Below are positions 5,884-8,926 of a DNA stretch of 64,000 nt, one piece after another (position 1 is the first letter of the stretch; the number at the start of each line of letters is the position of its first letter). Source of the DNA: an uncultured Clostridia bacterium (GTDB lineage Bacteria; Bacillota; Clostridia; Oscillospirales; Ruminococcaceae); assembly GCA_947588805.1 (NCBI GenBank), contig CANPYR010000001.1, forward strand, positions 1 to 64,000, read 5' to 3'. Made by a program: the position numbers and the translations under genes. The notes beneath the pieces were generated by a model that worked only from the letters and a program-made list of their open reading frames with translations, was not told where the DNA came from and made no database searches.

Positions 5884-6627
5884 TTAAATCTTAATCTTTT
5901 CGGTTACCTGCGAACCGTCGTCTACAATAAGAGATTCGGTGTATTCGACTCTTCCGATATTGCACCCGGGACCTATTTCAACGGTCGCGCCCCTTACTGT
6001 CTCGGCTTCGGTGCATTCAAGGTAGATATTATCCCCTTCGATTATCTTTGAATGCAGCTTTCCTCTCCCCTTGTCCTTGTTTACCGAGAACAGAGTAAAA
6101 TTGAAAATTTTAACGTTGACGTCGTTCGTCTGATTTCTTGAGACTTTGAGATTTGTGCATCCTATCTCGTTAATGTTGCAGTCGTTGTAAAGAGATACGG
6201 AAACGGATTCCGCGTTTAATAGTCCGGATATATTTACCGCTCCCCTGATATCCGCTTCGACCTCAGCAGATATGTTTGAAATGCTTGCGGAGCCCGAGAT
6301 CTTGATTTTTTTGCAGTCGATATCCCCCGCTATCTTTGAAGAGCCTGCGATCTTAAACTCGTCGCACTTTATGTTTTTTTCAAACCCTGAAGAGCCCGCG
6401 GTATAGATCCTCGCGGCTCTCACTTCGCCCATGACCTTTCCCGAACCGGAGATCGAGATTTCTTCGTCGCAGGTGATATTACCGTTGATTTTTCCGCTTC
6501 CGCTTATCTTTAATTCCCTGCAGAGCAGATCCCCGTTTATCACGCCCGAGCCGGATATCCCGACGTACTCGTAATATTCGTTTCCCGCGTTTAATGTTCC
6601 CGATCCTGAAATTCTTAAATCTGACAT
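5884..6627 (-). CDS. Bactofilin-like polymer-forming protein with ISGSG repeats
   Basis: A 247-residue protein whose first 130 residues are built from about seven units of roughly 17 residues, each starting with ISGSG or a close variant (IAGSS, ISGSA). This is the pattern expected of a right-handed beta-helix, as in bactofilins and Bacillus YhbE/YhbF. Bactofilins polymerise without nucleotides into cytoskeletal filaments or patches. The last 100 residues are less regular, with a second beta-rich segment. It has no signal peptide or membrane helix. It lies 2 bp after a YhbD homologue, matching the Bacillus yhbD-yhbE order. Assignment to the polymer-forming class is strong; the specific role is inference. 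Confidence 0.85.
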   Translation of the reverse strand: MSDLRISGSGTLNAGNEYYEYVGISGSGVINGDLLCRELKISGSGKINGNITCDEEISISGSGKVMGEVRAARIYTAGSSGFEKNIKCDEFKIAGSSKIAGDIDCKKIKISGSASISNISAEVEADIRGAVNISGLLNAESVSVSLYNDCNINEIGCTNLKVSRNQTNDVNVKIFNFTLFSVNKDKGRGKLHSKIIEGDNIYLECTEAETVRGATVEIGPGCNIGRVEYTESLIVDDGSQVTEKIKI

Positions 6628-6629
6628 AA

Positions 6630-7031
6630 TTATTCGTCCTCCGTAATATTATTATTTTTTAAAATTCCCATTACGCCGCTAAAAATACTTATTCTTTCTT
6701 TTCCATTGCTTACGCTCATATCGCTTATATCGGATATCGCGAAAACCTTTTCTCCGAAGTTTGTGTTTATTATAAGCTTCGGCACATCCTTTTCCTTTGC
6801 TCCGAGCTCTTTAGCGATCTGTTCAAGCGATTCGCTGTCCTTTCTTGAAAGGATCTCCTCCACTCTTTTGCAAATCAGCTCGCGGCTGAAAAAAGTTTCC
6901 TGACCTGTAAAGGTGGATTTCTTTACAAGCCATTCCTCCGGAATAAGCCCCATGCGCTTCCAGCGGTAAAGCGTTCCGTAGCTTATGCCGTATTTCTCCA
7001 AAATTTCCTTTTTGGAAATAAGTTCGCTCAC
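6630..7031 (-). CDS. yhbD: YhbD-like protein (DUF4004), DNA-binding-like
   Basis: A 133-residue soluble protein. The N-terminus ([20 protein letters not shown]) is a winged helix-turn-helix of MerR type, followed by MGLIPEEWL and a Glu/Lys-rich region. This matches the YhbD/DUF4004 family, which in Bacillus sits directly upstream of bactofilin genes. The gene overlaps the preceding 63-codon gene by 4 bp (ATGA), pointing to translational coupling. A plausible role is regulator of the operon through the palindromes at 7239-7286; this is inference from context. Confidence 0.85.
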
Positions 7032-7219
7032 CTGCTCGCCTCCTTTTTTATATGTCTTCTGCTGTGCGCCTGCGTTGTTTTGAGATGCTTTCTCACTGTT
7101 CCTTTTCCGGGATCAAGAAGTCTTTCGGTATTTATCCCCATTCTCCTCCAGCGCTCTATCGTCTCCCCGTTCACGCAGAATTTTTTTGAAATATCGCCGT
7201 CTCTTGAGATTATATTCAT
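7028..7219 (-). CDS. Small HTH-like protein (63 aa) heading the bactofilin operon
   Basis: I recognise no named family. Residues 8-35 ([20 protein letters not shown]) look like the DNA-binding helix pair of the next gene's YhbD product ([12 protein letters not shown]), so this may be a short paralogue. The C-terminus is basic ([10 protein letters not shown]). Its ATG at 7219 has AAAGGAGT 7 bp upstream, so it is very likely translated. It is the first gene after the promoter with twin operators, and it overlaps yhbD by 4 bp. It could be a mini-regulator or a modulator of YhbD. Confidence 0.7.
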
Positions 7220-7238: not shown

Positions 7239-7286
7239 GTAACATAACATTGTTACTATGCTTATAGTGTAACATAACATTGTTAC
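7239..7286. repeat. Twin palindromic operator (2 copies, 30 bp apart)
   Basis: The 18-mer GTAACATAACATTGTTAC occurs twice, at 7239-7256 and 7269-7286, identical and exactly 30 bp apart start to start (about three helical turns). Each copy has the outer palindrome GTAACA/TGTTAC. The upstream copy fills the space between the -35 and -10 boxes of the operon promoter; the second lies just past the expected transcription start. This is the classic layout of a repressor site. Confidence 0.8.
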
Positions 7287-7294
7287 GTTGTCAA
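7266..7294 (-). promoter_or_regulatory. Promoter of the bactofilin/YhbD operon
   Basis: On the minus strand TTGACA (7289-7294), 17 bp, TACACT (7266-7271), with TGT before the -10 (extended -10). The spacer and part of the -10 box belong to one copy of the palindrome, so a bound protein would block RNA polymerase. Confidence 0.75.
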
Positions 7295-7351: not shown

Positions 7352-7382
7352 TATAAAAAATCACCCGAAAAACGGGTGATTT
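7352..7382 (-). terminator. Terminator after the anti-sigma factor gene
   Basis: On the minus strand AATCACCCG and CGGGTGATT form a 9 bp stem around a short A/T loop, followed by a run of T. It ends the sigma/anti-sigma operon and separates it from the bactofilin operon. Confidence 0.85.
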
Positions 7383-7394
7383 AGATATAGCATA

Positions 7395-8360
7395 TTATCC
7401 GACCTTTACAACCCAGTTCCCGTGAAGCTCCAGCCTTTTACCGTTCTTAAGAAGCAATCCAACCGAGCGAAGCCTTACCCAAAGCTTTTCATCCTGCCCG
7501 AAGCCCGAGATCTCGACGGTATTATTTTCGTTGTCGATAATCATCTTCCCGCCTTTGCCGTCGTCAAGCTCCAGCTTCGGGCCGCCGGTTCCGAGAAGGT
7601 ATGAAGCTCCTGAGCCGCCCAGAGACTCCAAAGATTCTCCCTTAAAGCCGGATATCGCGTCGGGATGATACTCGCTCGCTTCGCTGAACGGATACTTTTC
7701 TTCATCCTTGGGCGTGAAGACGAAGCTGTACTGTCCGTCCGAAGTCTTTTCAAGACTTATTTCAAGCTCCCCTTCCGATGTATCGTATCCCGTCCCCTCT
7801 TCTTCGCTTCCCAAAAAGCTTGCGGCGGGATCAAATATTATCCTGTCTCCGAAGTCATCGCTGTTAAAGTTTATAAGCTCGTAGCTGCTACCGTCAAGAT
7901 CCGTCTCGACTAAATAACCTCCGACCGGGATATCGGTAAACTGCAGATCTCCGTTTTCATCAAGCCAGTAGGTAGACAAAAGAAAGATACCGTCCGGATC
8001 TACCGTTTCACCGGTCTCGCTTTTTAGTGAAACGCTGTCTGCGTCCAATTTACCGATAATACTCCCCTCCTCGCTCAACGCTACGACCACAGGTTCGGTC
8101 GTTCCCGTCCTGAAGCCCATGAATTTATACTCAGCCGCTCTTTGTATTACTCCCCTGCCGTTTCTTGCAAATATAATCCCCGCGCCCGCAGCGATAACCG
8201 CTGCCATAAATATAGCCGCAACCGCTGTGATCTTTCTCAGCATTTTTATTTCATGTTGCTTTTCTTCCATGGCTCTTAACACTCCTTTTTCTATATCTTC
8301 TGAAAGACCTTCGGGTATTTCTATAATTCCCACAGCTTCTCTGAGCTCATCCTTCATCAT
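7395..8360 (-). CDS. Membrane-anchored anti-sigma factor (DUF4179-like)
   Basis: A 321-residue protein with a short cytoplasmic N-terminus of about 40 residues (KDELREAVGIIEIPEGLSEDIE), one membrane helix (about residues 45-66), and a large extracellular part with DUF4179-like beta-rich sequence. The gene starts inside the end of the ECF sigma gene (14 bp overlap), the usual layout for an anti-sigma factor that holds its sigma factor at the membrane. Two ATGs in tandem (8360 and 8357) follow AAAGGAGTG; either can serve. The extracellular part presumably senses an envelope signal, which cannot be named from sequence. Confidence 0.82.
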   Translation of the reverse strand: MMKDELREAVGIIEIPEGLSEDIEKGVLRAMEEKQHEIKMLRKITAVAAIFMAAVIAAGAGIIFARNGRGVIQRAAEYKFMGFRTGTTEPVVVALSEEGSIIGKLDADSVSLKSETGETVDPDGIFLLSTYWLDENGDLQFTDIPVGGYLVETDLDGSSYELINFNSDDFGDRIIFDPAASFLGSEEEGTGYDTSEGELEISLEKTSDGQYSFVFTPKDEEKYPFSEASEYHPDAISGFKGESLESLGGSGASYLLGTGGPKLELDDGKGGKMIIDNENNTVEISGFGQDEKLWVRLRSVGLLLKNGKRLELHGNWVVKVG

Positions 8361-8853
8361 AAAAACACTCCTTTTTTAGTTTTTTTAATGTCCTGTACAG
8401 AACCGATTTAACCGTAGAAAGAGGAATTTTCACCGTTTCCGAGATCTCCTTCAGGCTGAGTCCGTACAGCTCATGAAGTAAAAGAACGGTTTTTTCCTTT
8501 TCATCAAGTTCTCCGAGTATCGCTTCAAGAAGAATCCTTGCGTCCGCTGAAGCTTCCGGAGACGGAAGATAAGCGATATCCTCACCGGTATCCTCTATTG
8601 AAACCGTTCTTTTTCTCTTTTTCAGGATATCCTGAGAGCAGTTTATCGCGATCCTTATCGCCCAGGTCTTAAAATATCTTATTTCCTTGAGCTTTTTTCT
8701 TTCCTTGAAGCATCTGTATGCGGTTTCCTGGACAACGTCGCGGGAATCTTCGCGGTTTTTGAGATAAATGAATGCGATCCTGTAAAGCTCGTCCGAAATC
8801 TCGGAAAATCTTCGGCAGAAATCCTCTTTATCCTCAAACATCCGTTCGTTCAC
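8347..8853 (-). CDS. ECF-type RNA polymerase sigma factor
   Basis: A 168-residue sigma-70 factor of the extracytoplasmic-function class. Region 2 spans about residues 18-85 (DVVQETAYRCFKE, RYFKTWAIRIAINC). Region 4 spans about 110-160 (LYGLSLKEISETVKIPLSTVKSVLYRTLKKLK). No region 1.1 or 3 is present. The start is GTG at 8853, 8 bp after GAGGAGG; the next in-frame ATG (codon 5) is too far from that site. It is co-transcribed with the anti-sigma gene. An ECF-type promoter about 50-70 bp upstream suggests that it drives its own expression. Confidence 0.95.
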   Translation of the reverse strand: MNERMFEDKEDFCRRFSEISDELYRIAFIYLKNREDSRDVVQETAYRCFKERKKLKEIRYFKTWAIRIAINCSQDILKKRKRTVSIEDTGEDIAYLPSPEASADARILLEAILGELDEKEKTVLLLHELYGLSLKEISETVKIPLSTVKSVLYRTLKKLKKECFYDEG

Positions 8854-8878: not shown

Positions 8879-8892
8879 TGTAACGCGTTACA
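8879..8892. other. Perfect 14-bp palindrome in the sigma-gene leader
   Basis: TGTAACGCGTTACA is a perfect inverted repeat between the ECF promoter and the ribosome binding site of the sigma gene. Its half-site GTAAC/GTTAC is the same as that in the twin operator at 7239-7286 but with a different spacing. A binding site is possible; nothing proves it. Confidence 0.45.
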
Positions 8893-8899
8893 TCTATTA

Positions 8900-8926
8900 G
8901 ACGCTTTAAGCCGAGAAAAAGTTTCA
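8900..8926 (-). promoter_or_regulatory. ECF-type autoregulatory promoter
   Basis: On the minus strand TGAAAC (8921-8926), 17 bp, CGTC (8900-8903). This matches the -35/-10 pattern of ECF factors such as Bacillus SigW and SigM. It precedes the sigma gene, as expected for positive autoregulation. Confidence 0.7.

Follow-up and report, generated by a model that had tools for sequence, protein, structure and literature searches.

What reads the two identical 18-bp repeats in front of the yhbD–bactofilin operon of this uncultured member of the Clostridia (Ruminococcaceae), and what would its binding do to the operon? The window analysed here is the whole stretch of 64,000 nucleotides from contig CANPYR010000001.1 (positions 1 to 64,000). 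A first-pass annotation proposed that either YhbD, described as MerR-like, or a 63-residue protein of the same operon binds both repeats on one face of the helix and represses its own genes. The features on which the argument turns are listed below.

5884..6627, minus strand: bactofilin, the putative regulated output (PF04519, 73.1 bits against a cut-off of 27.9)
6630..7031, minus strand: YhbD/DUF4004, a predicted DNA-binding protein of 133 aa with a winged helix (PF13171, 125.7 bits, cut-off 27)
7028..7219, minus strand: 63-residue protein, diverged copy of the YhbD HTH (open reading frame, hhalign; no match in Pfam or NCBIfam searches)
7239..7256, minus strand: candidate operator O2, the second identical 18-mer (exact match), over the predicted transcription start and start of the leader
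7266..7271, minus strand: -10 box TACACT with TG in front (extended -10), from a promoter scan; TACACT, TACAAT or TATnAT in relatives
7269..7286, minus strand: candidate operator O1 (exact match), in the -35/-10 spacer, its last three bases overlapping the -10 box
7289..7294, minus strand: -35 box TTGACA, from a promoter scan; conserved in relatives
7358..7382, minus strand: terminator-like hairpin of the upstream gene, from a terminator scan that gives about as many such hits in this region as in shuffles and is weak taken alone

Twin sites in the yhbD promoter

The operon runs on the minus strand in the order 63-residue reading frame, yhbD (DUF4004) and bactofilin gene, with the stop codon of the first overlapping the GTG start of the second. 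Exact copies of GTAACATAACATTGTTAC lie on the plus strand at 7239-7256 and 7269-7286, with a start-to-start distance of 30 bp, just as the annotation had described them, and on the coding minus strand both read GTAACAATGTTATGTTAC. A scan of the window allowing up to three mismatches found no match beyond these two (the mean in shuffles being 0.01), and a search of the whole genome for further copies, which the annotation had suggested, returned the same two as the only exact matches, the next best carrying three mismatches. The repeats had also been called palindromes, which they are, but imperfectly over 18 bp; the palindrome conserved across relatives is a unit of 11-13 bp, (G)TAACA-N-TGTTA(C), to which the source genus and most Bacilli add a third overlapping half-site, TGTTAC.

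The promoter scan places TTGACA (7294-7289), 17 bp and TACACT (7271-7266) around O1, in agreement with the earlier observation that one copy fills the -35/-10 spacer. O2 starts about 10 bp downstream of the -10 box and, from the geometry of the promoter, would cover the region where transcription should start. Further upstream, the hairpin at 7358..7382 may perhaps separate the preceding gene from the yhbD promoter. An Rfam scan near the promoter at 12 loci gave no riboswitch or leader RNA match at the gathering score; lowering the threshold brought up chance matches to miRNAs in one clade's leader hairpin. In one clade of the genus (L031, L033, L034 and L040), a GC-rich hairpin leader that belongs to no Rfam family (AAGCCGC...GCGGCTT, AAGCC...GGCTT) lies between O2 and yhbD.

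Conservation of the site across Bacillota

Within the genus, yhbD, bactofilin and the site (18-mer counted with at most one mismatch) occur together in 26 of 31 genomes, and the remaining five lack all three. All genus matches to the 18-mer and to the 13-mer lie just upstream of yhbD or, in one genome (G214), at a contig end, so that the site has a single locus per genome and no regulon in the genus. The upstream regions read TTGACA-nC-GTAACAATGTTATGTTAC-ACT or -AAT throughout, followed by the second site, which in relatives is the 18-mer in direct or flipped orientation or the 13-mer palindrome GTAACAWTGTTAC.

Beyond the genus, in other Clostridia and in draws from the family and the phylum, the site keeps the same register. 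From Clostridia to Bacilli the core GTAACA-N-TGTTA, usually with the third overlapping half-site, holds the same spacer position at yhbD genes, about 8 bp past the start of the -35 box. Poor conservation beside other yhbD genes had been named as grounds for abandoning the idea, and the opposite was found: AACANTGTT stands upstream of the yhbD HTH in 70 of the 72 loci tested. One exception (L016) has a single central mismatch, GTAACGATGTTATG, and the other (L020) is at a contig start in a genome that carries the site at a different contig end (L085). Conservation extends to columns beyond the search word (G at -2, 90%; T at -1, 93%; A-T-G at +9 to +11, 94-100%).

Site and gene also occur together across at least nine families. 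Among 399 genomes of the phylum sample, DUF4004 was found in 20 and the strict pattern GTAACANTGTTATGNTA in 14, all of them among those 20. As a further test we took a Bacilli family not previously examined as a group (80 genomes), in which 31 genomes have DUF4004 and 27 the pattern, all within the 31, and the pattern is found in none of the 49 genomes without DUF4004. Of the four pattern-less DUF4004 genomes of this family (L127 being among their loci), three carry variant sites such as CAAAACAATGTTATGTTACATT and the fourth a weaker one, AAAACATTGTTAC. Fisher tests gave 1.6e-21 for the phylum sample and 2e-17 for the Bacilli family, with a further value of 5.9e-6; these ignore relatedness and are indicative only.

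Might such conservation reflect nothing more than promoter constraint or inherited DNA? TGTTAC does overlap the extended -10 box (TGnTAnnnT), as this explanation would have it, but O2 falls beyond the -35 and -10 boxes and recurs at changing distances as a direct copy, a flipped copy or a 13-mer, and the site persists from Clostridia to Bacilli amid random flanks; in Bacilli it has outlasted the -35 box, which has decayed there. Pure promoter constraint is refuted because the downstream element is kept in several orientations, and we give the explanation as a whole almost no credence. Judged by its sequence conservation, the pair of repeats is a real DNA docking site, an operator that almost all of the yhbD–bactofilin operons examined across Bacillota have at their promoter.

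YhbD as the candidate DNA-reading protein

Because yhbD, bactofilin and operator come and go together, co-occurrence alone cannot name the component that reads the DNA. At operator-bearing loci outside the genus, yhbD and bactofilin, with their antisense shadow reading frames, are the only genes common to all, bactofilin lying downstream of yhbD in nearly all those with enough flank, and YhbD is the only always-encoded protein with a DNA-binding domain. YhbD comes in a short form (about 130 aa) and a long form (about 210 aa), with near-identical N-terminal HTH parts and different C-terminal domains. The site is identical for both forms despite these differing C-terminal domains, and so the operator tracks the HTH. 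Both forms keep the recognition region ISYGxLYRWKR..LIPE.W almost unchanged, and within the HTH S-Y-G-x-L-Y-R-W-K-R and G-Q-E-T are almost invariant. The PF13171 match of the window's YhbD is confined to the N-terminal HTH part (profile positions 1-81 of 197); in its C-terminal region the short form is different, and this domain differs between Clostridia and Bacilli. One DUF4004 protein (L128) has lost the recognition helix of its HTH; it is accompanied by neither operator nor bactofilin and is likely a decayed copy.

The description of YhbD as MerR-like holds at the level of the predicted fold but not by profile, PF00376 scoring 14.4 bits against a cut-off of 28.2. AlphaFold2 models the window's YhbD as a winged HTH, an HTH with a two-strand wing (mean pLDDT 85.7), and a further YhbD model is likewise a winged HTH (pLDDT 89.7); helices follow the wing in these models, which are of monomers only, a point that bears on a C-terminal dimerisation coiled coil. 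The best Foldseek neighbours, TnrA, HiNmlR and GlnR, are DNA complexes of the MerR superfamily, and these matches are weak (best E 0.025), with a probability of 1.00 to TnrA and HiNmlR at an E of about 0.03. A sequence search of the PDB with the YhbD profile gave no meaningful match.

That the twin 18-mers are bound by the 63-residue protein as regulator, in place of YhbD, is very improbable. The protein is the first product after the promoter, and its helix pair does resemble that of YhbD, as the annotation had noticed: four such small proteins, compared by hhalign with the YhbD profile, scored a probability of 91% (E 1.1e-6), which makes them remote relatives of the YhbD HTH. As a diverged copy, it could compete for the sites or modulate their use. 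Its gene, on the other hand, is present in only four of the 26 genus genomes whereas the operator is present in all 26, no recognisable copy was found in any of 98 relatives searched, and the operator is unchanged where the protein is absent. It also lacks the conserved wing and most residues of the recognition helix. With a distribution of four genomes in 26 it cannot be the general regulator; in its own species it may modulate YhbD.

An unlinked or global regulator that reads the sites seems hardly more plausible. YhbD as the reader is a prediction, and the TGTNA half-sites of GlnR and TnrA look similar, but each genome has the site at one locus, and where yhbD is lost the site is lost too.

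Probable repression rather than activation

We consider it probable, on this comparative evidence, that YhbD, encoded by the operon's first conserved gene, is a dedicated local autorepressor that binds both 18-mers and holds down its own operon together with bactofilin. The winged HTH would bind GTAACA-N-TGTTA(TGTTAC) at O1 in the spacer and at O2 at the transcription start, YhbD bound there would exclude RNA polymerase, and this exclusion would keep the yhbD operon and its encoded bactofilin down. Such a switch would be local, with one target per genome as a rule, and the signal that lifts repression would be carried by the C-terminal domain. We infer the repressive effect from the anatomy of the promoter: with a 17-bp spacer at almost all loci and boxes that often approach the consensus (12 of 12 positions at L009 and L010), it needs no help, and polymerase would be shut out by a protein sitting on O1 and O2. 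The operator is also conserved at the regulator's own promoter and tied to the regulator gene.

Alternatively, YhbD might bind the sites and activate from the spacer in the manner of MerR, as its fold, close to that of MerR proteins, and the position of the site would allow. Classical MerR activators act on long spacers of 19-20 bp. Almost all loci here have a 17-bp spacer, which with near-consensus boxes suits repression and not MerR-type activation, and a protein bound at O2, on the downstream side of the -10 box, would be in a blocking position. We therefore hold activation to be improbable, if less so than a different reader of the sites.

The autorepression proposed in the first-pass annotation thus stands in part: the site is conserved at yhbD promoters and the promoter anatomy favours repression, but binding to both sites on one face of the helix does not survive comparison. 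The spacing between O1 and O2 is 27 bp at 18 loci, 28 at eight, 30 at six, 32 at 14 and 33-40 (33-36, 38 or 40) at 11, and 13 of 70 loci have a single site. The helical phase thus varies, and cooperation on one face of the helix is not general.

The third half-site (TGTT again, five to six bases on) accompanies O1 in 47 of 70 loci and O2 in 21 of 57, where it is mostly flipped. The -10 box cannot explain its presence at O2, and a third protomer or an alternative register is therefore a plausible reading of the motif. This three-half-site form does not fit a simple dimer, which counts against YhbD as the reader.

Perhaps YhbD also senses the bactofilin cytoskeleton, its C-terminal domain binding bactofilin so that the level or assembly of the polymer feeds back on the operon. 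We regard this as unlikely, though less remote than the alternatives above; if true, YhbD would be an autorepressor titrated by filaments, and a cytoskeletal polymer would be linked through it to the switch of its own gene.

Relation to known systems

The yhbD-yhbE-yhbF (bacEF) operon of Bacillus subtilis resembles that of the window in having DUF4004 followed by bactofilins, and its DUF4004 is picked up by the same profile; the B. subtilis YhbD is of the long form, with a different C-terminal domain from the short YhbD of the window. The bactofilins BacE and BacF, in a putative operon with yhbD, affect motility, for which they are required (PMC4627819). A nonsense mutation in yhbD was reported in antibiotic-selected strains in a 2026 paper, which calls the function of yhbD unknown and suggests a regulatory role from its position only (PMC12837462). 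The open-access literature yielded no description of a YhbD operator or binding site and no use of the term DUF4004, and a search for the motif brought up only papers whose titles and abstracts concern other subjects; outside the open-access literature there may be earlier reports. In B. subtilis 168 we predict GTAACANTGTTATGTTAC about 50-60 bp upstream of the yhbD coding start.

In kind, YhbD is most likely an ordinary local autoregulator. GlnR and TnrA, the closest solved structures by fold, also have AT-rich palindromic sites. They are Bacillus nitrogen regulators of the MerR superfamily and act at many promoters through TGTNA-N7-TNACA, whereas DUF4004 proteins differ from them in the site, in the C-terminal part and in usually having just one target. 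BldC of Streptomyces is a small MerR-like winged HTH protein that reads repeated half-sites (PMC5859096), and by this likeness the third half-site at the yhbD operator could mean cooperative binding. The BldC sites are head-to-tail direct repeats, AATTXXXX(C), serving a large regulon, whereas the yhbD site has a palindromic core and a local target.

The value of the proposal is that it offers a role and a binding site for an uncharacterised family (YhbD/DUF4004) tied to a cytoskeletal polymer. Across much of Bacillota, including Bacillus with its link to motility, bactofilin operons would have YhbD as their dedicated regulator, and the operator would supply both a criterion for recognising such operons and a way into the question of when the bactofilin polymer is made.

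Additional site occurrences

One Bacilli genome (L151; G619 contig C4, about 164135) carries the operator a second time, as GTAACAATGTTATGTTA, and some 40 bp from it a partner, AACAAAACAATGTTA, upstream of a small ribbon-helix-helix-like reading frame. The pair is possibly a second YhbD target; lying apart from yhbD, it counts against the main reading. In many long yhbD genes (L117-L126), a near-operator, CGNAACATTGTTTC, lies within the coding region about 231 bp past the start of the HTH motif, over the codons for R-N-I-V, and may reflect a protein constraint or an internal site. A search of the phylum for twin sites gave two other hits, both unrelated, one within a coding region and one a TAACAGTGTTAG pair. 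This different twin palindrome, present twice in another genome (L116), is just upstream of a TetR-type regulator gene. Within the window itself, an ECF-type sigma gene (8347-8853, minus strand) has upstream of it, at 8879-8926 and by eye only, an ECF-like promoter, TGAAAC-17-CGTCTA, and after this TGTAACGCGTTACA (8879-8892), a perfect palindrome with the GTAAC half-site in common.
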